64,000 nt of DNA from Planococcus shenhongbingii (lineage in GTDB: Bacteria; Bacillota; Bacilli; Bacillales_A; Planococcaceae), in contig NZ_CP129235.1 of assembly GCF_030413635.1 (NCBI RefSeq), positions 2,480,001-2,544,000 of the forward strand, written 5' to 3'. Positions 2,750-15,062 of this stretch are shown piece after piece; position 1 is the stretch's first letter; every line of letters begins with the position of its first letter. Made by a program: the position numbers and the translations under genes. The notes below the pieces were generated by a model, which saw nothing but the letters and a program-made list of their open reading frames with translations, was not told the origin of the DNA and made no database searches.

Positions 2750-3691
2750 TTACGTAATCAAATCAGCAGTCACATCGTCAATCACCAAAACATCAAAATA
2801 ACCGCCTCTTAATGCCGCTTTGATGCTTTCGACTTTGTGAGTGCCTTCCACAATGCCAATCACTTCCGGAATCTGTTTATACTCGTTGATATCGAGTCCG
2901 ATGACCAGATCATTCAACGGATGCTTAATCTCGTTGCCAGCTTGGTCGTAAAAGCGTGAACCGATATCCCCAACAGCCCCTGCTTGTTTTAAGGAAACGA
3001 GATCATCTTCTTTCAAATATTCCATGGTGGTCATTGTCGATCCTTTGAAAGGGTTGCCGATTCCGACGACTGCCATATCAACATTACGTCCTTCTTCAAG
3101 CACCATCGCAATATCTTCAGACTGGACGAGACGCTTTTTCAATTCAGCAGACTCGACCATCGCAGGAGCATATAAATAGGAACAATTTGAGTTCATCTTC
3201 TGTGCCAGCTGATAAGCGAGCAAATTAGAATGGATTTCCACCAGCTTTCTGCCCATTCCACCGACCAACGGAATAACTTTCAGATTTTGATGCTGTTCAT
3301 AAGGATATTCCTGAACGAATTTTGCCAGCGTGCTGCCCCAGGATATCCCCAATGACTTTTTCCCGTTGATGTTTTTGGATATGTAGAAAGAGGCCGCTTT
3401 CCCCAAGGAGTGCTTGACCATTTCTGAATCTCTGCCCATCGCTGGTACGACAATTGCTTCTTTCAGTTGATATTTTTTTTCAAGCCGATGTTCCAATTCG
3501 ACTGTATGCGCATTTTCATCTTTAATGTAGATCTCAACTATGCCATTTTCCCGGGCTTTGTTTAATAGTTTGGAAATCACAGGCCGGGATACGCCAATTT
3601 TCTTCGCGATTTCCGCCTGTGTCTGCCCTTCAAAATAATACAGCCTCGATACTTTTACGATTTGCCTGCGCTCTTCCCAATTCATCATCAC
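2750..3691 (-). CDS. SorC/DeoR-type sugar-responsive transcriptional regulator
   Basis: The protein has 313 residues. Residues about 5-60 form a winged helix-turn-helix (QTQAEIAKKIGVSRPVISKLL). Residues about 65-310 form the SorC-family sugar-phosphate-binding domain, with LGISWGSTLAKF and VVGIGNPF as recognisable blocks. It is the last gene of a same-strand cluster that includes a sorbitol-type PTS and a 2-oxo-acid dehydrogenase, separated from lpdA by 157 bp. SorC proteins usually bind a phosphorylated sugar from the pathway they control. The shared operator upstream of the two catabolic operons is its most likely target, though direct evidence is lacking. Start: the first three codons are all ATG; the exact one is uncertain. 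Confidence 0.88.
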   Translation of the reverse strand: MMMNWEERRQIVKVSRLYYFEGQTQAEIAKKIGVSRPVISKLLNKARENGIVEIYIKDENAHTVELEHRLEKKYQLKEAIVVPAMGRDSEMVKHSLGKAASFYISKNINGKKSLGISWGSTLAKFVQEYPYEQHQNLKVIPLVGGMGRKLVEIHSNLLAYQLAQKMNSNCSYLYAPAMVESAELKKRLVQSEDIAMVLEEGRNVDMAVVGIGNPFKGSTMTTMEYLKEDDLVSLKQAGAVGDIGSRFYDQAGNEIKHPLNDLVIGLDINEYKQIPEVIGIVEGTHKVESIKAALRGGYFDVLVIDDVTADLIT

Positions 3692-3790
3692 TGCACCTTC
3701 TCATTTTCATCAAAATTGAAAAGCGAATGGATTTCCCCAGTGAACCGCTTTCATTTTTCAGCAGATTCAATTTGAGGCGGCCGCCAATTG

Positions 3791-3836
3791 AGGCCTTTAT
3801 CGCCTATCGCATATTTCTATTATAGGACGCAAAGGC
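3791..3836. promoter_or_regulatory. Imperfect inverted repeat between lpdA and the regulator
   Basis: GGCCTTT near 3792 pairs with AAAGGCC near 3830, with partly matching inner arms. It lies directly downstream of the lpdA stop on the minus strand and upstream of the regulator. It could weaken read-through or act as a processing site. There is no U-tract, so I do not call it a terminator. Confidence 0.3.
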
Positions 3837-3848
3837 CACTTCTGGCAA

Positions 3849-5231
3849 TTAATGGTGAACACCTTGGCCAAGCCAGGAAGCCGCCGCTTCGTATAAGCTT
3901 TCGGACACAGTCGGGTGGGCATGAATCATGGAAGCCAGTTCATCCACGGTTCCTTCCAGGTGAATAAAAGCGGATGGCTCTGCAATCATTTCCGTCACAT
4001 GCGGACCGACCATCAAAACCCCGAGAATTTCTCCATATTTGGTGCCGGCAATCAATTTAGTAAACCCTTCTTTTTCGTCCTGCGCCAATGCTTTGCCATT
4101 GCCTGCATGGTCCACCCTCACCACTTTATAATCAATTCCTTGCTGCTTCGCTTCTTCTTCCGTCATGCCGACACTGGCAATCTCCGGGCTGGTGTAGACA
4201 CAGCGAGGAACGACCGCATAATTGATTGTTTGCTTTTCGCCTGCAGCGTTTGAAGCGGCAATCAATCCTTCTGCGCTCGCCGCATGGGCAAGCTGCCAAC
4301 CGCCGATTACATCCCCGATTGCGTAAATTGCTGGATTGCTTGTCACCATCCGGTCATCCACTATGACAAAACGGCCGTTCATTTTCAGGTTCAAATCAAC
4401 AAACGCAGAAGTATTCGGCGCTCTGCCGACAGCCATTAAGATAGCTTCTGTCTTCAGCACTTCTTTTTTGCCGTTGTCAGTTTCCACATGCACGAGCTGC
4501 CGGTTTTCCTGCTGCTCAATGCTCGCCACTTTTGTGCTGGTCAGAACGGAAATCCCTTTCTTTTTTAAAGCTTTCGCAAGAGCTTTGGAGGCTTCCGGCT
4601 CTTCACTCGGAACGATTCTGCCGCTCATTTCCACAATGCTGACAGGCACATTCAAACTGGCGAAGATGCAGGCAAGTTCTACACCAATGATGCCACCACC
4701 CACGATGACCATAGAATCCGGTATCTTCTCGATATCAAAAATCGTATCGCTTGTGAAATAGGATGCGTCTTCAATGCCGGCAACCGGCGGAACGATTGGC
4801 CGTGAACCTGTTGCCAAAATAATGTTTTTTCCCTGGATGATTTCTTCTTTATCAGCAAGCTGAATGGAAATTGACTGGTCTGCCCTCACTTCACCTAAAC
4901 CATTGAAAACCTCAATATTCCCTTGTTTGAGCAAGTACGAAATTCCGTTTCTGAGTTGCTGGATCACAGCGTCTTTTCGGGCGAGCATTTTAGAAAGGGA
5001 AAAAGTTATGGGACCTGTTTCAATCCCCCAGCTTTTGGCTTTTTCAATGTTTTCAATCACTTCGGCATGCCGGAGCAAAGTCTTTGACGGGATGCATCCG
5101 CGGTTCAAACAAGTGCCTCCCAGTTCACGGGCTTCAATCAGCGCCACCTTTTTTCCGAGCTTGGCTGCCCAGATGGCTGCTACATAGCCACCCGGACCGC
5201 CTCCAAGTACCACAACTTCATAATTCTTCAA
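3849..5231 (-). CDS. lpdA: Dihydrolipoyl dehydrogenase (E3)
   Basis: The protein has 460 residues, normal for an E3. It reoxidises dihydrolipoyl groups on E2 with NAD+. FAD-binding GGGPGGYVAA is at residues 10-19, the redox disulfide C41-C46 is in GGTCLNRGCIPSK, the NAD-binding motif GGGIIGVELA is near 178, and the C-terminal catalytic pair is in HAHPTVSE near 440. It starts 13 bp after the E2 gene and ends the four-gene operon E1a-E1b-E2-E3. Because it is encoded with this E1/E2 set, it is probably the dedicated E3 of this complex and not the housekeeping pyruvate dehydrogenase copy. Confidence 0.95.
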   Translation of the reverse strand: MKNYEVVVLGGGPGGYVAAIWAAKLGKKVALIEARELGGTCLNRGCIPSKTLLRHAEVIENIEKAKSWGIETGPITFSLSKMLARKDAVIQQLRNGISYLLKQGNIEVFNGLGEVRADQSISIQLADKEEIIQGKNIILATGSRPIVPPVAGIEDASYFTSDTIFDIEKIPDSMVIVGGGIIGVELACIFASLNVPVSIVEMSGRIVPSEEPEASKALAKALKKKGISVLTSTKVASIEQQENRQLVHVETDNGKKEVLKTEAILMAVGRAPNTSAFVDLNLKMNGRFVIVDDRMVTSNPAIYAIGDVIGGWQLAHAASAEGLIAASNAAGEKQTINYAVVPRCVYTSPEIASVGMTEEEAKQQGIDYKVVRVDHAGNGKALAQDEKEGFTKLIAGTKYGEILGVLMVGPHVTEMIAEPSAFIHLEGTVDELASMIHAHPTVSESLYEAAASWLGQGVHH

Positions 5232-5244
5232 TGAAATCTACTCC

Positions 5245-6621
5245 TTAAACCAGTAATTTATAAGGATGTTCAAGCACTTCTTTTAATTCGGTCAAAAAGG
5301 CCGCCGCAGGAGCACCGTCAATAACCCGGTGATCAAATGACAAGCTGAGGACCATCATCGGCCGAAGCTCAATGGCGCCGTTTACACCGACCGGCTTTTC
5401 GTTGATTCGCCCTACTCCCAGAATGGCTGATTCCGGCTGATTGATGACCGGTGTAAAAGCATCAATGGCATACATGCCCAGATTGCTGATGGTGAACGTG
5501 CCACCCGACATTTCGTCCGGCTTCAGTTTGCTGTCGCGCGCCGCTTTACCAAGGCGCTTGCATTCTGCAGTCAATTCGGAAAGGCCTTTTTGATCCACGT
5601 TTTTAACCACCGGCACCATTAGGCCGTTGTCGACGGCTACCGCTAAGCCAAGGTTAATTTCTTCGTGAAAGACGATTTCATTGCCTTCTAAGGAAACATT
5701 TATATTAGGGTGCAGCTTCAGCGCTGAAGCTGAAGCTTTTAAAATGATTTCGGTATAGGACAGCCGGAATCCGGTCTGTTGTTCAATCGATCCGAGCAAT
5801 TGCTTGCGCATGCCGATTGCTTCCGTCATGTCAACTTCCGTAGTCAACGTGACGTGAGGTGCCGTTGTTTTGCTTTGATGCATGCGCTGAGCCACAACTT
5901 TTCGGATGCCTTCCATTTTCACGCGTTTGCCGCCGGCTGAAGCTAAAATCGGTGCCGGCTGTTTTGCCCCTTCAACGTCTGAGCGGTATATTTTCCCTTG
6001 CGAACCGGTGCCTTTTATTCCCTGCAACTCTACGCCTTCCGCTTCTGCCACTTTTTTAGCGAGCGGCGTTGCTTTTGGTGCCGTATGGGATGAAGCAAAA
6101 GCCATCACATCTCCTTGCTGGATTCGCCCGTTTGGTCCGGACCCTGGAACTTCTGCAAGCACAATGTTTTCTTCTCTTGCCACTCGTCGTGCAGCAGGAG
6201 TGGCCCGCGGCTTTTCTTCAAGCGGAGAGTTCTCCCCTGCCCCGCTTGTTTCATTAGGGACACTGGTTTCACTGATGCCTTGTTCTTTTAAATCGCTGAC
6301 TTCCGGCTGGCGGGAATCGCTTAAGTCTTCTTCCTCTGCCGCAGCACCGGATTCACCCGGAGGATCGTCTGGAACTCTTTCCCCCGCTTCCCCGATATAG
6401 CCGACTACGTGATTGATTGGGACTTCATCGTCTTCTTCGAAATACTTTTTTAACAGAATGCCTTCTTCGTAGGATTCTACTTCAATGTTGATTTTGTCTG
6501 TCATGATTTCAAAAAGTGGGTCTCCCACTTCAACGGAATCGCCTTCGTTTTTAAACCATTGAATCATTGTCCCGACTTCCATCGTGCTGCTCAATTTCGG
6601 CATGAATATTTCTTTAGCCAT
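5245..6621 (-). CDS. Dihydrolipoamide acyltransferase (E2) with tandem E3-binding domains
   Basis: The protein has 458 residues. An N-terminal lipoyl domain carries the lipoyl-lysine K43 in TDKINIE. An acidic, Pro/Ser-rich linker follows (about 80-138), then two peripheral-subunit-binding domains (139-173 and 183-217), and a catalytic acyltransferase domain from about 230 ending in the active-site motif DHRVIDG. It transfers an acyl group, probably acetyl, to CoA. Most bacterial E2 chains carry one subunit-binding domain, so the tandem pair is notable. It lies 17 bp after the E1b gene. Operon context and E1 similarity point to an acetoin-dehydrogenase-type complex; substrate unproven. Confidence 0.9.
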   Translation of the reverse strand: MAKEIFMPKLSSTMEVGTMIQWFKNEGDSVEVGDPLFEIMTDKINIEVESYEEGILLKKYFEEDDEVPINHVVGYIGEAGERVPDDPPGESGAAAEEEDLSDSRQPEVSDLKEQGISETSVPNETSGAGENSPLEEKPRATPAARRVAREENIVLAEVPGSGPNGRIQQGDVMAFASSHTAPKATPLAKKVAEAEGVELQGIKGTGSQGKIYRSDVEGAKQPAPILASAGGKRVKMEGIRKVVAQRMHQSKTTAPHVTLTTEVDMTEAIGMRKQLLGSIEQQTGFRLSYTEIILKASASALKLHPNINVSLEGNEIVFHEEINLGLAVAVDNGLMVPVVKNVDQKGLSELTAECKRLGKAARDSKLKPDEMSGGTFTISNLGMYAIDAFTPVINQPESAILGVGRINEKPVGVNGAIELRPMMVLSLSFDHRVIDGAPAAAFLTELKEVLEHPYKLLV

Positions 6622-6638
6622 CGGTCTATTCCTCCTCC

Positions 6639-7622
6639 CTACTGGCGGTTTAAGATTTCTTTTGCTGCTGAGACAATATCGCCGACTTGCGGAACTGCCG
6701 CTTTTTCGAGCTCTGGGTTATAAGGAATCGGAACAGCTTTGCCGCCCAGCCGTTTTATCGGCGCATCCAAATAGTCAAATGCTTCACTTTCTGCAATTGT
6801 GCTGGCAATTTCTCCGCCAAAGCCTCCACGCTTAACCGCTTCATGGACAACAATCAGACGGCTTGTTTTCTTAACCGACTGGATAATCGTTTCAGTATCC
6901 AAAGGAACGAGAGTCCGAGGATCAATTATTTCCACGCTGATGCCTTCTTTTTCAAGCTCCGCAGCTGCTTCCAGCGCTTTATGCACCATGATGGCAGTGG
7001 CAACAATCGTCACATCCGTCCCTTCACGTTTAATGTCCGCTTTGCCTAATGGAATGGAATATTGTTCTTCAGGAACTTCCGATTTCGTTTTATAGCACAA
7101 TTTGTGTTCGTAAAAAATGACAGGATTATCATCATCGATTGCCGCTTTTAACAGCCCTTTTGCATCATACGCTGTCGAAGGCTGGACTACTTTTAAACCC
7201 GGGACATGTGCCATCCAGGCTTCCAGGCTTTGGGAATGCTGGGCCGCTGCTCCTGTTCCAGAACCGGCCGGAGTGCGCAGCACCATCGGCACTTTCCCTT
7301 TTCCTCCGTACATATAACGGATTTTCGCTGCCTGGTTGACCATATTATCCATCGCAATGGTGATGAAATCCGAAAATTGCAGCTCCAGTATCGGCCGCAT
7401 GCCAGTTAAAGCTGCACCGACTGCCGTGCCGGAAATGGCCGCTTCTGAAATGGGCGTGTTGCGAATCCGTTCCGGACCGAATTCTTCGATCATGCCGCGC
7501 GTCACACCAAAAGCTCCTCCATAAACCCCGATATCTTCTCCCAAAATGAAAACATCATCGTTTTGGCGCATTTCCTGGCTCAATGCTTCTCTGACCGCTT
7601 CTAGATAAGTTAGCTCTCTCAT
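6639..7622 (-). CDS. TPP-dependent dehydrogenase E1 component, beta subunit (AcoB/PdhB-like)
   Basis: The protein has 327 residues, typical of a separate E1 beta chain. It pairs with the alpha chain to decarboxylate a 2-oxo acid or cleave an acyloin and pass the acyl-TPP unit to E2. Characteristic features are [16 protein letters not shown] near residue 30 and [14 protein letters not shown] near 60, where the Glu is the residue expected to contact the TPP aminopyrimidine, and a C-terminal transketolase domain with DPRTLVPLD. It follows the alpha gene by 24 bp. The look is closer to acetoin dehydrogenase than to branched-chain or pyruvate E1, but I cannot separate these securely by eye. Confidence 0.9.
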
Positions 7623-7646
7623 TGCTTTACTCCCCTTTGCTCCGTC

Positions 7647-8630
7647 TTAAGCGTAAATGTCTTCCATTAAATCATCGAGTGTTGGCATTGGACTATCTTT
7701 TGCAAATTCAACAGATTCTTCAATTTCCTTTTTCGCATCGGCTTTGATCTGGTCCGCTTCCTCTTCTGTCAGCAATCCTTCTTGGATCAGCACATCGCGC
7801 AAGCGTGCAATCGGATCTTTCGCGCGCCATTCCTGTTCTTCTTCGCGTGTCCGGTATTTTTTCGCATCACTCTTGGAATGGCCTTTCCAGCGATATGTTT
7901 TCGCTTCCACAATTGAAGGGCCTTCTCCATTTCGCGCCCGCTCAACCGCTTGCCCTACTCCATTCATCACATCAAAAACATCATTGCCATCCACTACTTT
8001 TCCTGGGATGCCGTAGGCTTCAGCCCGCTGCGCCACGTCTTCAACATTCATCATTTCTTTAGCAGGACCAGACATGCCGTACTGATTGTTTTCACAAATA
8101 AAGACAACTGGCAGTTTCCAAATAGACGCTAAGTTGACTGCTTCATGGAAACTGCCTTCATTTGAAGCACCGTCCCCGAAAAAGCACAGTACAACATATC
8201 CTTCTTTTCTCATCTGGGAAGTTAAAGCTGCACCCGCAGCAATCGAAAAGCCGCCTCCAACAATTCCGTTGGCCCCAAGGTTTCCTTGTTCAACATCGGC
8301 AATATGCATCGAACCGCCTTTGCCTTTGCAATAGCCGGTTGTGCGGCCGAACAATTCTGCCATCATCCGGTTCACTTCTGCTCCTTTAGCGATACAGTGT
8401 CCATGGCCACGGTGAGTGCTTGTGATTTTGTCCCGGTCTTCCAATACTGCAATCGATCCTACTGCTGAGGCTTCCTGGCCAACCGCTAAGTGAGTGGTTC
8501 CATGAATCATCCCTTTAGCAAAAAACTCATCAACTTTCTCTTCAAAATACCGGATTTGCCACATTTGCTTCAACAAGCCTGCCAAATCTGTTTCTTGGAC
8601 ATGCGGCGGTAAATTAAGTGTTTGAGTCAT
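7647..8630 (-). CDS. TPP-dependent dehydrogenase E1 component, alpha subunit (AcoA-like)
   Basis: The protein has 327 residues. The TPP-binding motif runs from GDG (152-154) to NN (181-182). The STHRGHGHC block near residue 71 and HSKSDAKKYR near 240 are typical of acetoin dehydrogenase and pyruvate dehydrogenase E1 alpha chains; the phosphorylation-loop HxxxD form is present. It is the first gene of the operon E1a-E1b-E2-E3, with GAGGAGG upstream of ATG8630. A strong promoter and a palindromic operator shared with the PTS operon precede it. In the proposed pathway it would cleave a methyl-ketone acyloin to an enzyme-bound acetyl unit. Confidence 0.9.
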   Translation of the reverse strand: MTQTLNLPPHVQETDLAGLLKQMWQIRYFEEKVDEFFAKGMIHGTTHLAVGQEASAVGSIAVLEDRDKITSTHRGHGHCIAKGAEVNRMMAELFGRTTGYCKGKGGSMHIADVEQGNLGANGIVGGGFSIAAGAALTSQMRKEGYVVLCFFGDGASNEGSFHEAVNLASIWKLPVVFICENNQYGMSGPAKEMMNVEDVAQRAEAYGIPGKVVDGNDVFDVMNGVGQAVERARNGEGPSIVEAKTYRWKGHSKSDAKKYRTREEEQEWRAKDPIARLRDVLIQEGLLTEEEADQIKADAKKEIEESVEFAKDSPMPTLDDLMEDIYA

Positions 8631-8649
8631 TGAAAATCCTCCTCTGTAT

Positions 8650-8682
8650 TTTACATTTGTTCACATACGTAACATATGTAAA
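8650..8682. promoter_or_regulatory. Palindromic operator of the dehydrogenase operon
   Basis: TTTACAT (8650-8656) and ATGTAAA (8676-8682) bound a palindrome whose core is ACATTTGTT, nine bases, AACATATGT (8653-8679). The same architecture with the same nine-base spacer occurs at 13004-13030 upstream of gutM. It lies directly downstream of the -10 element, a position suited to repression. The SorC-type protein encoded at 2750-3691 is the best candidate binder. Confidence 0.65.
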
Positions 8683-8683
8683 T

Positions 8684-8712
8684 ATCATAAGACTTTTCTG
8701 TCAATTCGTCAA
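8684..8712 (-). promoter_or_regulatory. Sigma-A-type promoter of the dehydrogenase operon
   Basis: On the minus strand TTGACG (8707-8712), a 17-nt spacer and TATGAT (8684-8689) match the sigma-A consensus at five of six positions each. The site is 54 bp upstream of the E1a start codon. No -24/-12 sigma-54 element, as used for acoABCL in B. subtilis, was seen. Confidence 0.6.
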
Positions 8713-8719
8713 GAAATTA

Positions 8720-8762
8720 AAAGGGACAGGCTCCTCTACTAAGTGGAGAAGACTGGCCCTTG
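8720..8762 (-). terminator. Hairpin downstream of the zinc-ribbon gene
   Basis: Stem AAGGG...CAG...CCTCT pairs imperfectly with AGTGGAG...CTG...CCCTT, 13 bp after the stop of the small gene on the right. It would separate that gene from the dehydrogenase operon. Confidence 0.5.
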
Positions 8763-8774
8763 TACAGGAAAATA

Positions 8775-9119
8775 TCATTTTATACTTTTTTTAGTTTTAT
8801 AGGTTTTGATCACTTTTCTGGACGTATTCACATCTTTTAAAATCCGGTATGGCTTTTTCATGGCACGTACAGGAAGAGAAAATAACAAATGGCTCAAATC
8901 ATCGCGGTACTCTTTAGTCATCCGGGTAGGCTTAGTTGCAATGCGTTCATAGATTTCTTTGTAGAACTCTTTTTTGAGATCCACTTTCAATTCCTTCGTC
9001 CGGTTGCATTGCAGGCACCGGATGCTTTTGATGTCGCTGTTGATATAGGTTATTTCATGATTTACTTCTTCTTTGCAGTGAACACAGTACAATCCTGCTT
9101 CCATTTTCTTTACTTTCAT
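8775..9119 (-). CDS. Small protein with a Cys4 zinc-ribbon
   Basis: The protein has 114 residues. Two CxxC pairs, CVHC near residue 12 and CLQC near 35, would bind one zinc ion. The rest is strongly basic, with a C-terminal tail rich in Lys, Arg and Thr. I recall similar Bacillales proteins annotated only as bh protein. It stands between the PTS operon and the dehydrogenase operon, both on the same strand, and is followed by its own hairpin. No shared operator is visible upstream, so membership in the catabolic module is uncertain. A nucleic-acid-binding role would suit its charge, but this is inference. Confidence 0.75.
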   Translation of the reverse strand: MKVKKMEAGLYCVHCKEEVNHEITYINSDIKSIRCLQCNRTKELKVDLKKEFYKEIYERIATKPTRMTKEYRDDLSHLLFSLPVRAMKKPYRILKDVNTSRKVIKTYKTKKSIK

Positions 9120-9202
9120 TATAGAACACCTTCTCGTTTAGTTAATTTACGTTCTAACCGATATTAAAATGTTCCTTCAATCACCGAAGCAATTGGTGAA
9201 AG

Positions 9203-10528
9203 TCATGCTTTTACCGGTTCTACTTTTTCTGTTTTCGCTGCAAATGTATCATCTTGCATGCGGCGCAATCGCCAAATTGTGGATTCTTTCGTTTGGACGA
9301 CATCGTCATATGTGATAATTTCGCCTTTTTTAATGGAGCGTTTCAATTGGACATTCCGGTCAACCAGACCCATTGGCAAAGCGTTCTTTTCTTTCGCTTC
9401 AACTGCAGACAGGATACTGCCGTAAACTGTAAAACCGCCGATGCTGTCAAGGAACTGCCCTTCTTCAAGATCGGTTTTAGCTACAGTCACTGTTTCCGCC
9501 TGGAGGCCCTTCCAAGGGGCGATTGTGGCTTCATTGTAAAAATAGGCTCTGGCAATTGAAATCGGCGTTTCCAGACTTGTTAGATGATATGGACGGTAAA
9601 GCACGTAGTTAGGTCCTTCCCCCATGCTCAAATACTGCATTTCATGATTGACTTCATCTTTTTCTGAAGCCACTATTACAAAAACGCCTGGTGCAATGCC
9701 GTTGATATATTCTACTATCTTCTTATTGCTGACTTGGCCGCCATCTTCTTTCAGTTTAAAAATTTCCGGAAGCCCTTTCACATCGCTGACAAATCCATTC
9801 ATGCCCGGTTTGTCTGGCAGGAATCCTGTGGCATTGGCTACGGCAGTCATTTCTACCATTGTCTTTGTTCCATCCTGAAACGAAGCAAGCATTTTCGGGC
9901 TGGCGCCTTTCCTTGCTGCTTCTTCTGCTGCAGTGTCCGGATTCGCCGCTAAATTCAGCGGATTGTTTTTTCCTTTGCCAACAGCTACCACTTCGAATCC
10001 AAGGGCATCTGCAAAATCATATAATTCCATGATTGCACCCGGCTCGTCTCCAGCTGTCCCGGTATATACGACACCGCTGGCATCCGCCATTTTCTTCAGC
10101 AGCGGCCCGATCGTTACGTCCGCTTCAACATTGAGCATGACTATGTGTTTCTTATTTAAGATGGCATCCCAAGCGATTTTCGCTCCAATATCCGGCACGC
10201 CAGTCGCATCAACCACAACATCCACTTCTGGAAGCGAAGTGACCAGCTGGGCGTCAGTAGTCGCTACAACTTTCCCTGCCTTCACAGCCTCTTCTGCCTC
10301 TTCTTCATTATTCGTCTCAACAATGTCCGAACTTGCCACCCCGGATTTTGAATAGGCATTTTTTACATTATCAATTTGTATATCAGCCGTTACGACAACC
10401 CGCATACCGGCCATATTTTCAATCTGGGAAACCATGCCTCTTCCCATTTGTCCTGCACCGACTAGGCCAACCTTGATAATTGTTCCGCTTTTTTCAAGTT
10501 CTTCTAGTTTTCTATTTATACCAAGCAT
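9203..10528 (-). CDS. NAD(P)-dependent oxidoreductase with homoserine-dehydrogenase-like fold and C-terminal SAF domain (DRL-like)
   Basis: The protein has 441 residues. An N-terminal Rossmann domain begins with VGLVGAGQMG (about 20-30), a catalytic region follows with GTAGDEPGAIMELYDFADALGF, and a SAF-type domain lies near 340-420 (LPMGLVDRNVQLKRSIKKGEIITYDDV). This layout matches the DXR-like (DRL) oxidoreductase family; in Brucella, DRL interconverts 1-deoxy-D-xylulose 5-phosphate and 2-C-methyl-D-erythritol 4-phosphate. It is the last gene of the sorbitol-type PTS operon, 18 bp after srlB, so it probably acts on the phosphorylated PTS product in the cytosol. Substrate is unproven; other branched or linear polyol phosphates are possible. 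Ribosome site GGAG lies upstream of ATG10528. Confidence 0.85.
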   Translation of the reverse strand: MLGINRKLEELEKSGTIIKVGLVGAGQMGRGMVSQIENMAGMRVVVTADIQIDNVKNAYSKSGVASSDIVETNNEEEAEEAVKAGKVVATTDAQLVTSLPEVDVVVDATGVPDIGAKIAWDAILNKKHIVMLNVEADVTIGPLLKKMADASGVVYTGTAGDEPGAIMELYDFADALGFEVVAVGKGKNNPLNLAANPDTAAEEAARKGASPKMLASFQDGTKTMVEMTAVANATGFLPDKPGMNGFVSDVKGLPEIFKLKEDGGQVSNKKIVEYINGIAPGVFVIVASEKDEVNHEMQYLSMGEGPNYVLYRPYHLTSLETPISIARAYFYNEATIAPWKGLQAETVTVAKTDLEEGQFLDSIGGFTVYGSILSAVEAKEKNALPMGLVDRNVQLKRSIKKGEIITYDDVVQTKESTIWRLRRMQDDTFAAKTEKVEPVKA

Positions 10529-10546
10529 TATCCAGTCTCCTCTTTG

Positions 10547-10912
10547 TTAGGCTTTAAAAATCCGGATATCAGCACCCAATGCCAATTCAGGCAAAGGCTT
10601 GCTTTCTACGCACATAGTTCCCGGAAGATCGGCCGAAATATCACCTGTAAACGAGATGGTGCAGTGGCCGAGGTCTTGTAAAGTGTCATTCACTTTATTG
10701 CCGACGAACAAAATTCTGTAACGCTCGCCGTTGATTTCCAGGATGTCTCCAGTTTCAACTTTACCAAGAAGATCCGCTTTTTCATGGATTACTGCGAAGG
10801 AACGGAGTTCTTCAGGTACAGTATTATTAAATATGACCATCATATTCTCTTCTGCAAAGATTTCAACTTCTTCACCGATTTCTGTTATTTTAGCTTCATA
10901 TTTTTTTATCAT
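10547..10912 (-). CDS. srlB: PTS glucitol/sorbitol-type transporter subunit IIA
   Basis: The protein has 121 residues from ATG10912; a GTG at 10924 is also possible, but alignment with E. coli SrlB from memory favours the ATG. It receives phosphate from HPr on the active-site His in the segment FAVIHEKADL and passes it to the IIB domain of SrlE. The conserved segment LGHCTISFTGDISADLPGTM near the C terminus is typical of the family. It sits between srlE and the DRL-like gene in one operon. The family transports sorbitol and related polyols, so the name does not fix the substrate. Confidence 0.93.
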   Translation of the reverse strand: MIKKYEAKITEIGEEVEIFAEENMMVIFNNTVPEELRSFAVIHEKADLLGKVETGDILEINGERYRILFVGNKVNDTLQDLGHCTISFTGDISADLPGTMCVESKPLPELALGADIRIFKA

Positions 10913-10942
10913 AACGTCTTCCACCTAACTGCCCCCTTTTGA

Positions 10943-11995
10943 TTAACTGTATAAGCCAAAGCTGAATAAGTATGCGATTACAACTGCCAACGGACCTGTA
11001 ATCATCCGGGAAATCAAGACAGCCGGGACTCCGACTTCAATCGTTTCCGGATCCGCTTCCCCGAGCGTCAAACCGACTGGCACAAAATCAGCCCCTACTT
11101 GAGGATTGATGGCAAACAATGCTGGTAATGCCAGTGCCGGCGGAATATTGCCTCGCCCGATTTCCACACCGACCAGCACTCCGACGACTTGAGCAATAAC
11201 TGCACCCGGCCCGAGCAGCGGCGATAAAATCGGCAAAGCACAGATAACCGAAAGAATCAGCAATCCGAAAATATTGCCGGCAAGCGGTGTCACGAAATTC
11301 GCAATGAGATCACCAATCCCTGTATAAGTGATAATCCCGATCAGCATACTGACAAACGCCATGAACGGCAGGATGTTTTTTAGGACTTGATCGATTGTTT
11401 CACGTCCTGCTTGGTAGAGGACCCCCACTACTTTACCGGCACCGCGGCCCACCCGTTCAATAAGATTCATTTTCTTTGGCTGCTGGTAATTTCCAGCCGC
11501 TTTCAGCCTTGCTTCTTCTTTTATTTCCTGCGGCGTCTTTCGGACCGCTGGTGCTTCCACTTCATCGACCGCATTTTTCACTTCGTCCTGATCCTCATAA
11601 GGAGCAGCTACTGCACGGATGTCTGAAAGGGTCACACCTGACACAAAATTTTCTTCGTTGATAAATTTCATTAATGGGCCGGATGGTGATGTCGCATTGA
11701 CGTTGATCGTCAAAATATTCATTTTTGGATAAACACCGCACCGCGCTGTGCCACCGCAGTCGATAATGACACAGGCCATCGTTTCTTTTGCATAAGATCC
11801 TTTAAAGCCATCAACAGCTTCGGCGCCTGTCAGACGTGCAATTTCTTCTGCTATCGGATGAATTCCGCCGCCTGTAACTGAGACGATATACCGCTGTTCT
11901 TCGTTTGGCCGAATCGTCAGCGGACCGCCCCAGCCTCCGCGGCCTTTTGTGACGGAAACTGCCTTAAAATTCAATGGTGTTTGAGTACCTGTCAT
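10943..11995 (-). CDS. srlE: PTS glucitol/sorbitol-type transporter subunit IIB with N-terminal part of the membrane domain
   Basis: The protein has 350 residues from ATG11995 (AAGGAGG just upstream). The N-terminal IIB domain includes RGGWGGPL and [12 protein letters not shown] (around residue 85), where a Cys carries phosphate. The C-terminal half has about four to five membrane helices (from about residue 195), with [21 protein letters not shown] and [15 protein letters not shown]. It completes the membrane channel with SrlA. It follows srlA by 39 bp. Sorbitol-type specificity is only by family; its operon partner is an oxidoreductase, not a typical sorbitol-6-phosphate dehydrogenase. Confidence 0.94.
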
Positions 11996-12034
11996 TTTGC
12001 TTGCCTCCTTTTCAACTGAGCGCAACTCTAAGAT

Positions 12035-12583
12035 TTAAACTTCCATTCCTTTTGCCTTCATCATGCGGACTGTAATGAGTTCCGTTACAATACCGCGGAT
12101 CAAAATGACAATCACACCTACCAAAAAGTAACGGATCGCCAATGGCCCGAGCGACAGTCCTAATGTTGTAATCCCTGCGGAAATCCCGAGATACACGAAT
12201 AATTCAGCAGGGTTCGCATGCGGGAACAATCCCGTAATCGGGTGAACGAAAGAAACCGCTGAATCGTAAAAAGCCGGTTTTTGTTTTTCCGGAAGAAACT
12301 TTCCAAAAGTATAGGCCATCGGATTGGTTAAAAAGAAAACAGCCAGTACTGGAAACAGCGTATAGCGCAAAATCATATTTTTGGTGCTTTTCCGTGCTAG
12401 CCGATTTATGCGTTCTTCACCAATCAACCGGATCAGCGCATTGATGGCGGTGATTAACACAACCAGCAACGGAATTATTCCTGTGACCAGTCCGGTAAAC
12501 GTATCGGCACCTGCCTGGAACATTCCAATAAAGCCTTCAGCGAGCCTAACTAAAAAGTTCATGATTGCATCTAAAAAATTCAT
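12035..12583 (-). CDS. srlA: PTS glucitol/sorbitol-type transporter subunit IIC
   Basis: The protein has 182 residues with about four hydrophobic segments. FLVRLAEGFIGMFQAGADTFTGLVTGIIP is the hallmark start of the SrlA family, followed by AINALIRLIGEERI and the polar loop PHANPAELFVYLGI that lines the substrate path. It forms the translocation channel with SrlE. It lies 12 bp after gutM and begins the transport part of the operon. Confidence 0.94.
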   Translation of the reverse strand: MNFLDAIMNFLVRLAEGFIGMFQAGADTFTGLVTGIIPLLVVLITAINALIRLIGEERINRLARKSTKNMILRYTLFPVLAVFFLTNPMAYTFGKFLPEKQKPAFYDSAVSFVHPITGLFPHANPAELFVYLGISAGITTLGLSLGPLAIRYFLVGVIVILIRGIVTELITVRMMKAKGMEV

Positions 12584-12595
12584 CTTTCATCCTCC

Positions 12596-12982
12596 TTATA
12601 CTGCTGGATTTATCTTCTTTTCCATTTGCGTTTCGATTTTTTCGATTGCCATTTTAAAAGCTAAGTCAACAGGTTCGTGATCCAGGCTTTTTTTCAGCTT
12701 CTCTATTGTCAGGCCGTTGTATTTACTGAAATCCTCAAACCGGCTGAATACTGTCACTCCTTTCATCAATTGGCTTTCTACTACTGTGCCTGCATCATCC
12801 GTAACCAAAATAGCAATGACGCCAATCCCCATTTTTTGCTTTTGGACCCCGACCCCCAAATAGCCAGAAGGCCTGTTGCTCATTTTCTTAATAGTCGTTT
12901 GATAATTTTTCAACTGGATTTTCGTCAGCATTATTTGAAGCAGCCAAACTCCAGCAAACACGACTATAAACCACCCCCACAA
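12596..12982 (-). CDS. gutM: GutM-family PTS operon protein
   Basis: The protein has 128 residues. An N-terminal hydrophobic segment (about 3-22) is followed by the conserved GutM region with KMSNRPSGYLGVGVQKQKMGIGVIAILV. In E. coli GutM is described as an activator of the glucitol operon, although the hydrophobic N terminus suggests a membrane-associated role. It is the first gene of the operon gutM-srlA-srlE-srlB-DRL-like, downstream of a promoter with a cre site and of the shared operator. Confidence 0.9.
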   Translation of the reverse strand: MWGWFIVVFAGVWLLQIMLTKIQLKNYQTTIKKMSNRPSGYLGVGVQKQKMGIGVIAILVTDDAGTVVESQLMKGVTVFSRFEDFSKYNGLTIEKLKKSLDHEPVDLAFKMAIEKIETQMEKKINPAV

Positions 12983-13003
12983 ATGAACCCCTCCGTTCCG
13001 TTT

Positions 13004-13030
13004 ACATATGTTCCATGCTGTAACACATGT
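13004..13030. promoter_or_regulatory. Palindromic operator of the PTS operon, copy of the dehydrogenase operator
   Basis: ACATATGTT (13004-13012), nine bases, and AACACATGT (13022-13030) form a 27-bp palindrome. The half-sites and the nine-base spacer match the element at 8653-8679; the flanking TTTACAT is also shared. It lies downstream of the -10 element and upstream of the gutM ribosome site. Confidence 0.65.
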
Positions 13031-13040
13031 TATTAGCTAC

Positions 13041-13069
13041 ATTATAAAAGCGCTTTCACCATAAATCAA
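13041..13069 (-). promoter_or_regulatory. Promoter of the PTS operon with overlapping cre site
   Basis: On the minus strand TTGATT (13064-13069), a 17-nt spacer and TATAAT (13041-13046) form a good sigma-A promoter. TGAAAGCGCTTTTA at 13045-13058 matches the CcpA cre consensus TGWAANCGNTNWCA except at the penultimate base and lies between -35 and -10. This predicts carbon catabolite repression of the operon. Confidence 0.65.
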
Positions 13070-13384: not shown

Positions 13385-14383
13385 TTATTGAAGTAGATTT
13401 GCGAATTCTTTTCCTTGAGGAAATATGCCGTATAGGCCTCCCGTATGGATAAAGAGAATATTATTCAAATGTTCCAGACGACCTTTCTTTATTTCTTCAA
13501 TAAGTCCATAAAATCCTTTGCCGGTATAAACAGGATCCAAGACAAGGCCTTCCAGCATCGCAAGTTCTTTTATGAATGCTCTTTCTTCCGGCCGTCCGAT
13601 GGCGTATCCCAGCCCTACATAACCATCGATAATGCGAATATCCTTAGAACAGATTTCAACAGAACTTTCCAGGTGTTTTTCTGCGTCTTCCAATACCTTC
13701 ATTATTGCTCGGTGAAAATATTCGGCATCGTTGCTGACATTAAAACCAATAATCTCATGTGAAGTCTTAAAAATTTTTTGGGCGAGAAGCAAACCGGCAT
13801 ATGTCCCCCCGGAACCGACTGCCATAACTACTGCATCAAACTGGACGCCCATTTCTTTTTCCTGCTGGATGATTTCTTCCATTGCAGAATAATATCCGAA
13901 CGCTCCGATCCCGTTAGAGGCGCCTTCCGGAATAATGTAAGCATGACTCCCTTGCTGAGCCAGTTCTTCTTTCAATCCCGTCATAATATCATTCCGGCGA
14001 TTTCTATATTCCTCCGGCGTAACCCAGTGGATATCCGCTCCAAAAAGCACATCAAGCAATAAATTGCCATTCGGAGCAGCAGGCTGTTGTCCTCTGAGCA
14101 CCAGTTTTGTTTTCAATCCCAGTTTAGCTGCTGCCGCGGCCGTCGTCCGGCAATGGTTTGACTGGATGCCTCCGCAAGTGATCAGCGTATCCGCTCCTTG
14201 GCTGATTGCTTCGTGGAGGGTGTATTCCAGTTTCCTAATTTTATTGCCAGCCACTTCAGTACCGGTTTGGTCATCGCGTTTCACATATATATTTGGTCCT
14301 CCCAACTTTTCAGACAGCCGATGAAGTTTTTCAATTTTAGTAGGAAGATTTGCCAAATTCAAGCGTTTTGGTATGTTATGCAA
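13385..14383 (-). CDS. dcyD: D-cysteine desulfhydrase / ACC-deaminase family PLP enzyme
   Basis: The protein has 332 residues, the normal length. It would convert D-cysteine to pyruvate, sulfide and ammonia. The PLP-binding lysine is K48 in AGNKIRKLEY, the substrate-binding SNH motif is in GGIQSNHCR near 75, and the glycine-rich phosphate loop VGSGGTYAG is near residue 197. ACC deaminases share this fold; telling them apart needs alignment of the active-site tyrosine and Glu residues, so the D-cysteine assignment is by overall similarity. It is monocistronic and ends in a strong hairpin. Confidence 0.85.
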   Translation of the reverse strand: MHNIPKRLNLANLPTKIEKLHRLSEKLGGPNIYVKRDDQTGTEVAGNKIRKLEYTLHEAISQGADTLITCGGIQSNHCRTTAAAAAKLGLKTKLVLRGQQPAAPNGNLLLDVLFGADIHWVTPEEYRNRRNDIMTGLKEELAQQGSHAYIIPEGASNGIGAFGYYSAMEEIIQQEKEMGVQFDAVVMAVGSGGTYAGLLLAQKIFKTSHEIIGFNVSNDAEYFHRAIMKVLEDAEKHLESSVEICSKDIRIIDGYVGLGYAIGRPEERAFIKELAMLEGLVLDPVYTGKGFYGLIEEIKKGRLEHLNNILFIHTGGLYGIFPQGKEFANLLQ

Positions 14384-14438
14384 CGAATGCCACCTCTTCT
14401 TATAGTATTAAACAAATTATGAAAATCGGAAAGTTTAG

Positions 14439-14897
14439 TTAATCAAGCAAGTTCTTCAACATTTCTTCGATTTCTTTTTCCAAATCATTTTTAGCCGCAT
14501 CAAATAAAGTCCCAAACCTTTTAAAGAAAGTTCCGTGATGATGCCAAATTGTAATGGCCGCTGCGTAAGCATCGTTATCATAGCCCGGGTCATTATAGTC
14601 TATCGCAATCCGAGAACGATATTCTTTGTCCAGGCAGCAGTCTGCAGACAGGCTTTCTAATACGTCTCCATTAAGATCCCTTGAAAGCCAGACGGAAAAG
14701 TTGCGCTTTTTCTGCTCTTCAAATTGAGCCGCATATTGAAGTTGCATCTTCTTAGCCAAATTTTCTGCCAAGTTTTCCATCTCGACAATTCTGTTTTTTA
14801 ATTCTTCGTCTATTCCCTCAGCATCAATAGAGATGTACTTCTGTAGATCAATGAATTTTTCGATGTCATAAAGCCATCTTCTAATTTTCTCACGCAC
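14439..14897 (-). CDS. Uncharacterised 152-residue cytosolic protein
   Basis: I do not recognise a family. The protein is highly charged, with predicted helices at the start (REKIRRWLYDIEKFIDLQKYI) and end (KNDLEKEIEEMLKNLLD) and two adjacent Cys residues (ADCCLDKEY) in the middle. There is no signal peptide or membrane segment. A GAGGAAGAAGGGGA stretch lies a few bases upstream of ATG14897 and can serve as ribosome site. It lies between dcyD and the selenoprotein-like gene on the same strand, 55 bp from dcyD, and may be co-transcribed with dcyD. Confidence 0.65.
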   Translation of the reverse strand: MREKIRRWLYDIEKFIDLQKYISIDAEGIDEELKNRIVEMENLAENLAKKMQLQYAAQFEEQKKRNFSVWLSRDLNGDVLESLSADCCLDKEYRSRIAIDYNDPGYDNDAYAAAITIWHHHGTFFKRFGTLFDAAKNDLEKEIEEMLKNLLD

Positions 14898-15062
14898 ATC
14901 CCCTTCTTCCTCTCTTTATAAATAATTTGGAAGTTTAATCATGTGTTTTCGGGTCCAAAGTAAAAAAGAAAGGAGCATTTCATTTAGATAACTGCATCCT
15001 TCCTTAATCCAGCCTTATTTCTTACTTATTGCTGCAGTTGGTATTCATCAGTTTGGTTTACT

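Follow-up and report, generated by a model that had tools for sequence, protein, structure and literature searches.

A DXR-II enzyme and an acyloin dehydrogenase-like complex in one predicted regulon of Planococcus shenhongbingii: a probable route for 2-C-methyl-D-erythritol catabolism

We analysed a stretch of 64,000 nucleotides, hereafter called the window, from the genome of Planococcus shenhongbingii (single contig of 3.98-Mb, NZ_CP129235.1; G000:C1:2480001-2544000). Between positions 2750 and 12982 of the window, the minus strand carries gutM-srlA-srlE-srlB for a sorbitol-type phosphotransferase system (PTS), a gene for a DRL/DXR-II oxidoreductase, a 114-aa gene, the E1a-E1b-E2-E3 genes of a dehydrogenase complex and a gene for a SorC regulator. 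From these genes we consider it probable that two operons form a single regulon for the catabolism of 2-C-methyl-D-erythritol (ME). The PTS would import ME as 2-C-methyl-D-erythritol 4-phosphate (MEP) and DRL would turn MEP into 1-deoxy-D-xylulose 5-phosphate (DXP), thus performing the first steps of the isoprenoid pathway in reverse. The E1-E2-E3 complex would then cleave DXP as an acyloin, C1-C2 passing through hydroxyethyl-thiamine diphosphate and acetyl-lipoyl to yield acetyl-CoA and NADH, and C3-C5 being released as glyceraldehyde 3-phosphate. Indeed, DXR-type reactions are reversible and DXP contains the acyloin core CH3-CO-CHOH. SorC is predicted to repress both operons until the sugar phosphate (MEP or DXP) builds up, and CcpA would add glucose repression at the PTS operon. 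A first-pass annotation had already read this pathway from the sequence; the grouping of the oxidoreductase with DXR-II, the position of E1 outside the pyruvate dehydrogenase-type and sigma-54-linked enzymes and the conserved linkage described below support that reading, in which the substrate and the two reactions are inferred.

The best solved relative of the oxidoreductase (9203..10528, minus strand, as are all genes and sites below; PF21135 (DRL_cat), 1.3e-68) is the DRL of Brucella, PDB 3upl/3upy (4.5e-104 over residues 2-427 in a phmmer search against PDB; 351.9 bits for 3upl). The protein is the single DRL match in its genome and its nearest named relatives are from Planococcus. It is 79% identical to BH0774 (P0181), which locus numbering leads us to equate with NP_241640.1, a B. 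halodurans protein listed in Table 1 of PMC3847144. In a tree of 56 rows, it groups with BH0774, operon-linked DRLs and Brucella 3UPL, apart from the DLO-like rows; the join to the outgroup is weak (77/14; 74), two of the 49 loci put in, L094 and L096, were removed by the ORF filter and are without a row, and the DLO-like rows were picked from plasmid records by lower identity and not from the list of PMC3847144. The Brucella DRL itself nests among alphaproteobacterial plasmid DRLs, 8/9 of which adjoin E1 genes. In a second quick tree of 67 rows, PTS-linked and other DRLs are interleaved and have nearly the same key residues; twelve rows had been removed from it (near-copies, two non-DXR-II, one long DLO branch and one duplicate), its group 'PTS_or_E1_linked' includes L195, which is without E1, and direction was not inferred from it.

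We observed that the window DRL keeps the Brucella residues G121, E174, F178, K191, K193, T229, R320 and Y322; the substrate-anchoring K191, K193 and T229 and the interface residues E174, F178, R320 and Y322 are therefore all present. The DLO-like outgroup rows have lost K193 in 5/5 cases and T229 in 4-5/5. According to PMC3847144, 11 DXR-II members were functional in complementation and four DLO members failed. Among the Bacilli described below, 26 of the 28 DRL proteins keep E174, F178, K191, K193, T229 and R320, with F in place of Y322 in five. Judged by tree and residues, the oxidoreductase is a real DRL, inside the DXR-II clade and with the key residues of the Brucella enzyme intact, which bears out the family assignment first made. 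The DRL-like proteins of G138 (L168) and G262 (L181) have lost K193, R320 and F178, and these two genomes are without a close E1b. A distant DLO-like protein (L202:1459-4329) adjoins genes for a 3-oxo-tetronate kinase and an aldolase, which hints that proteins of that branch act on a sugar acid.

The best-scoring solved relatives of E1 alpha (7647..8630; PF00676, E1_dh) are pyruvate dehydrogenases (PDH), and the genome holds further E1a-like proteins at 41, 35 and 29% identity, plus a partial match at 33%. In a quick tree of 63 rows made from concatenated E1a and E1b (E1 beta, 6639..7622; PF02779/PF02780, Transket_pyr/C), one clade (99 in the Shimodaira-Hasegawa-like approximate likelihood ratio test) comprises the window, 30 rows labelled as DRL genomes and nine alphaproteobacterial rows, and takes in the DRL-free L152/L153 and L189/L190 as well. 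One of the 30 rows, L188 (G073), comes from a genome in which no DRL was found. In the tree as a whole, L052 and L162 are identical, and L012, with no E1 open reading frames (ORFs), was left out. PDH-type and sigma-54-linked E1s fall outside this clade. A grouping of E1 with pyruvate or branched-chain dehydrogenases, which the first-pass annotation had named as a danger to its reading, was thus not observed among the E1s compared. We rejected a PDH- or branched-chain-type E1 on the basis of the tree; the paralogues in the same genome are only 29-41% identical.

The clade also has an active-site signature. Position 45 of E1a is T in 40/40 rows (window, DRL-genome and alphaproteobacterial rows); elsewhere it is F in 8/8 rows of PDH/branched-chain type, a label assigned by the analyst, in 4/4 sigma-54-linked and in 5/7 other rows, M in L152/L153 and T in L189/L190. 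At position 253, 38 of the 40 rows have K and 2 have R; the residue is E in the sigma-54-linked E1s, S (7) or M (1) in the PDH-type, S in L152/L153, R in L189/L190 and mixed in the others. T45 aligns to chain residue F65 of human PDH E1a (1ni4), whereas the position of K253 comes just after His-Ser in the 'ghsmsd' loop. The window signature reads T45 and GHS-K253-SD. In view of the roles of these residues in PDH, T45 may widen the pocket and K253 may meet the phosphate of DXP. A sigma-54 signature lies beside 3/4 rows of the sigma-54-linked clade, whose E1s are presumably AcoAB. The closest DRL-free E1 complex (L189 of G066) is accompanied by a KduD-type short-chain dehydrogenase/reductase (SDR), similar-sized genes, a major facilitator superfamily (MFS) transporter and a sigma-54 activator, and L190 (G160) resembles it in the sizes and order of the genes; perhaps these two loci encode a related pathway that acts on a different diol or acyloin.

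The first-pass annotation made its proposal depend on a conserved linkage between DRL and E1 in related genomes, and such a linkage is indeed seen in Bacilli and Clostridia and, beyond their phylum, in Alphaproteobacteria. We examined 80 loci around the nearest DRLs. In 60 of them the locus itself carries an E1a or E1b ORF with identity above 55%, and the other 20 loci represent 18 genomes (L035 and L053 are second loci). In 16 of these 18, an E1b of 63-93% identity lies beyond the edge or elsewhere in the genome; none was found in G308 and G309. The E1a beside that E1b carries GHSKSD in 15 of the 16 genomes, and in L239 there is no E1a in the stretch.

In a sample of 299 Bacilli genomes, DRL is present in 28 and a close E1b (at least 72% identity, the next best having 59%) also in 28; 25 genomes, representing 11 family codes, have both. 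A close E1b is found in 25/26 genomes with a residue-intact DRL vs 3/273 others (Fisher p ~5e-32, ignoring kinship). Within family f1, DRL and close E1b occur in the same 4 of 28 genomes. The genomes with DRL only are G138 and G262, whose residues are lost, and G180, whose DRL adjoins an EIIC-GAT gene (L173); those with E1b only are G073 (which shares its genus code with G110 and G143), G066 and G160. The second sample consisted of 291 genomes from the class of Tissierella simiarum, which we take to be Clostridia. DRL is present in 23 of them. In ten of these, a DRL forms part of a PTS operon (G434, G381, G408, G593, G579, G522, G435, G317, G314 (L078) and G315 (L080)), and in the other 13 no PTS genes accompany any DRL within the stretch, as judged on stretches of at most 19 kb, several of which end at contig ends (e.g. 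G597, G481, G459, G375). An E1a with GHSKSD was detected in 9/10 genomes with a PTS-linked DRL vs 0/13 of the others (p = 1.2e-5).

The two operons of the window share an operator, as had been noticed at first, and the site is real. One copy, ACATGTGTTAC-N6-GAACATATGTAAA, lies upstream of gutM (13000..13030) and the other, ACATATGTTAC-N6-GAACAAATGTAAA, upstream of E1 alpha (8649..8679). In the 3.98-Mb genome the pattern occurs exactly at two places; the one match with 2 mismatches is the reverse strand of the second copy, two places have 3 mismatches, and the reversed pattern, searched as a control over the whole genome, gave 0 matches. In relatives, we searched up to 250 bp upstream and required at least 20/22 positions; the consensus was written after the sites had been seen, so the counts are not blind. 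The operator precedes gutM in 34/60 copies, E1a in 32/58 and DRL in 2/79, and was found before none of srlA (0/73), srlE (0/74), E2 (0/58) and E1b (0/57); shuffles gave 0.0. In G110 and G143, the PTS-DRL and E1 operons are 215 and 177 kb apart and each is preceded by the operator (21 and 22 of 22 positions; best shuffle 18). G014 has a clear operator at the E1 operon only. An operator-like site (20/22 positions) also precedes a galactitol-type PTS in L166, L170 and L188.

The predicted repressor of both operons is the SorC/DeoR-type regulator (2750..3691), which combines helix-turn-helix matches (Pfam) with the Sugar-bind domain (PF04198, 1.4e-81) as expected for this family; the DeoR model of NCBIfam matches with a score under its cut-off. 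SorC genes recur close to the cluster in relatives. Promoter-like patterns accompany both operator copies, TTGACG-17-TATGAT at 8712-8684 and TTGATT-17-TATAAT at 13041..13069, the latter with a site resembling a catabolite-responsive element (cre) in its spacer (13044-13058, 1 mismatch). Promoter- and terminator-like counts in general are near shuffle level (9 vs 8.1; 7 vs 5.1), and the cre pattern over the whole window (31 vs 26.5) is not above chance; only its placement upstream of gutM across relatives is, with cre-like sites in 39/60 copies vs 3.0 in mononucleotide shuffles. The corresponding values are 25/100 vs 5.0 for SorC, 8/58 vs 2.5 for E1a and 4/58 vs 2.0 for E2, taken as a control. 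Regulation of this kind is more in keeping with the use of a carbon source than with the making of isoprenoids.

Clostridia and Alphaproteobacteria have the DRL-E1-E2 core as well, in many cases combined with a different transporter and a kinase. Alphaproteobacterial plasmids carry either a gut-PTS with its own enzyme I together with DRL-E1a-E1b-E2 (L091, L092, L094, L192) or an ATP-binding cassette (ABC) transporter and a PfkB kinase with DRL-E1a-E1b-E2-E3-LipA (L093, L193). DRL is flanked by an MFS transporter and an FGGY kinase in Metabacillus L039 and Ectobacillus L041, where E2, E3 and SorC are on the same locus and no gut-PTS was seen; Priestia L087 and L046 combine this MFS and kinase with gut-PTS genes, which lie at the edge of the stretch. 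The PTS, ABC+PfkB and MFS+FGGY arrangements would each supply a phosphorylated substrate. The sorbitol PTS of Salmonella is said to transport ME, according to the title of a 2004 report by Testa, a point that the first-pass annotation had not used and that adds to the case for ME.

The substrate could also be a close relative of ME. The same architecture might serve another branched or deoxy polyol, such as another 2-methyltetrol isomer or a 1-deoxypentitol, from which DRL would make a 1-deoxyketose phosphate for cleavage by E1. We regard this as unlikely, if the most serious of the alternatives: the substrate is unreadable from sequence, transporters differ among relatives, EIIC-GAT PTS included, and the DLO-like relative beside the 3-oxo-tetronate kinase indicates that the wider family has other substrates. 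However, the window DRL retains the residues to which DXR-II activity has been ascribed, and five genomes that have GcpE (clostridial G317, G381, G408, G314 and G522) gave no DXR-I match and no DRL at E<=1e-60 other than the PTS-linked one. The operon enzyme presumably interconverts DXP and MEP there, subject to genome completeness.

Several observations weigh against ME catabolism by the proposed route. The window DRL has N at the position of H250 and Q at that of V351, as has BH0774, and H is present at 250 in the other 27 sampled Bacilli DRL proteins; according to PMC3847144, H250 is missing from four DXR-II members and H250/V351, though conserved in most DXR-II, are not defining residues. 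The specificity of E1 is unreadable from the tree because L152, L153, L189, L190 and L188, for which no DRL was found, sit in its clade, and the SDR-operon rows L189/L190 have T45 and a basic residue 253 too. L090 has DRL-E1a-E1b-E2 in a stretch that shows neither a sugar PTS nor a kinase. In Phyllobacterium (L096, L195), DRL stands at the end of an operon for ABC sugar transport that includes an aldose epimerase and lacks E1, and possibly acts on another substrate or feeds another fate of DXP. Listeria L088, Enterococcus L095 and Ligilactobacillus L089 have PTS-DRL with no E1 in the fetched stretch, and G435 has a PTS-linked DRL and no E1a match in its genome; in these carriers without the complex, DXP would need another fate. 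An EIIC-GAT (galactitol-type) PTS lies near DRL or E1 in 27/149 stretches from Firmicutes and Alphaproteobacteria (stretches of more than 7 kb, some from the same genome; L166, L170, L188, L160, L179, L092, L094, L050 and L066 are among them), which hints at a second substrate; this PTS may import another substrate of the same pathway, e.g. 1-deoxyxylulose. We know of no report of growth on ME, and no description of methylerythritol catabolism by such a route was found in the open-licence literature, where absence is weak evidence.

Genes for a fructose-6-phosphate aldolase and a transketolase follow PTS-DRL in L089 (12916-15578) and lie within 7 kb of it in G435 (L316, ~14345-15002); fructose-6-phosphate aldolase is also present on L063, L068, L069 and L074, and possibly offers an E1-free route to cleave the product. 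In Eubacteriaceae and in the sampled clostridial genomes G434 and G381 (loci L076:11342-13336, L078, L080, L296 and L297), DRL is followed by genes for a HAD (Hydrolase_6) phosphatase and an iron-ADH_2 protein, which we read as AraM-like.

A different role for the array would be salvage or back-up biosynthesis, ME being imported as MEP for isoprenoids, with DRL as a second DXR and the complex as a co-travelling pyruvate or acetoin dehydrogenase. In the clostridial sample, GcpE is present in 23/23 DRL genomes and DXR-I was detected in only 5/23, DRL being the sole DXR found in the other 18, and the ME uptake said to occur in Salmonella would also suit salvage. Neither G579 nor G435 gave a DXR-I match; each carries a PTS-linked DRL and a further DRL that is not PTS-linked. 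The clostridial DRLs outside PTS operons are likely the housekeeping DXR. However, DXR-I is present as well in 27/28 of the Bacilli genomes with DRL, so these Bacilli can do without DRL for biosynthesis; in the Bacilli genome G004, which has DRL, PTS and E1a-E1b-E2, neither DXR-I nor GcpE was found. In addition, the complex accompanies PTS-linked DRLs and not the others, and the shared operator and cre-like sites also speak against salvage, which we consider improbable.

The database names and the gut-type PTS could suggest that an ordinary operon for acetoin dehydrogenase simply adjoins an ordinary sorbitol PTS whose dehydrogenase is unusual. We rejected this reading as very improbable, since srlD is missing (there is no sorbitol-6-phosphate dehydrogenase among the cluster genes), GutM and IIA are below canonical cut-offs, E1 lies outside the sigma-54-linked clade, and DRL and E1 co-occur even when unlinked, with one operator.

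The predicted ME regulon can be compared with four known systems. The DXR-II of Brucella and relatives (PMC3847144; PDB 3upl/3upy) is an alternative isoprenoid enzyme, and the window DRL shares its clade, domain and key residues; unlike it, the window DRL belongs to a regulon of catabolic appearance, in a genome that has DXR-I at another place, and is predicted to run in reverse. All four components of the sorbitol (glucitol) PTS gutM-srlAEB are present in the window, but the genes of 2750-12982 include no srlD, the regulator is SorC-type, and IIA and GutM are divergent. The complex has the E1a-E1b-E2-E3 order of the acetoin dehydrogenase AcoABCL and is likewise predicted to cleave an acyloin to acyl-CoA and an aldehyde; it differs from AcoABCL/AcoR in that its E1 falls outside the clade of the sigma-54-linked E1s and has T45/K253 in place of their F/E, and SorC replaces the sigma-54 activator. 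With the E1 of pyruvate dehydrogenase, the window E1 shares the superfamily but not the active-site signature; three E1a-like proteins of the same genome are at 29-41% identity.

More generally, we would give about even chances to a widespread reverse-MEP catabolism in Bacilli, Clostridia and Alphaproteobacteria, in which DXR-II was at root the oxidising enzyme and from which the biosynthetic DXR-II (Brucella, many Clostridia) was recruited several times. PMC3847144 leaves open why DXR-II occurs alongside DXR-I, without an isoprenoid pathway or with mevalonate only. It describes DXR-II as active in Finegoldia magna, where neither isoprenoid pathway was found, and in Chloroflexus aurantiacus, assigned to the mevalonate route only, and its main text contains no word starting with 'catabol' or 'sorbitol'. 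The MEP-less state given there for two Firmicutes was not encountered in our clostridial sample (GcpE in 23/23); G004, in the Bacilli, is the sole case. A catabolic role would answer the question of DXR-II distribution directly and, if true, explain DXR-II in bacteria without the MEP pathway. It would also provide a route from methylerythritol to central carbon, make DXP a new substrate for the 2-oxoacid/acyloin dehydrogenase superfamily, and serve as a caution that a DXR-II annotated as 'isoprenoid enzyme' may be mislabelled. Methylerythritol is also named among the isoprene photo-oxidation products (2-methyltetrols), and through such a pathway microbes would be a possible sink for methylerythritol that stems from plants or from isoprene.

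The ORFs of the array lie on the minus strand at the positions given at first, and their earlier gene names agree with the Pfam and NCBIfam family searches. The putative PTS-DRL operon begins with the GutM-like protein (12596..12982; NF007592, 2.9e-12, below cut-off), followed by the SrlA-like IIC (EII-GUT, 12035..12583; NF049923, 249.8 bits, cut-off 150), the SrlE-like IIB (EIIBC-GUT, 10943..12025; NF049924, 494.8 bits, cut-off 400) and the SrlB-like IIA (gutA IIA, 10547..10924; PF03829, 4.9e-36). Since the domain match of SrlE starts at residue 22, its true start may be downstream. GutM (46.7 vs 148 bits) and IIA (90.1 vs 189.55 bits) miss the canonical-sorbitol cut-offs of NCBIfam; the window PTS is therefore divergent. 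In the second operon, E1 is followed by E2, a lipoyl acyltransferase with the 2-oxoacid_dh catalytic domain (5245..6621; PF00198, 3e-88, PF02817 and PF00364), and by E3, a dihydrolipoyl dehydrogenase (3849..5231; TIGR01350, 547.5 bits, cut-off 408.8). DRL had been described as the last gene of the PTS operon. It does lie within the PTS-side array, but a 114-aa gene (8775..9119) stands between it and E1a, so DRL is only possibly the last gene of that operon. The 114-aa protein has two CxxC pairs and no Pfam match, and its homologues recur beside DRL or SorC in relatives. Two long hairpins, of 20 and 17 pairs, are located at 13374-13331 and 13236-13198, between the upstream gene and gutM.

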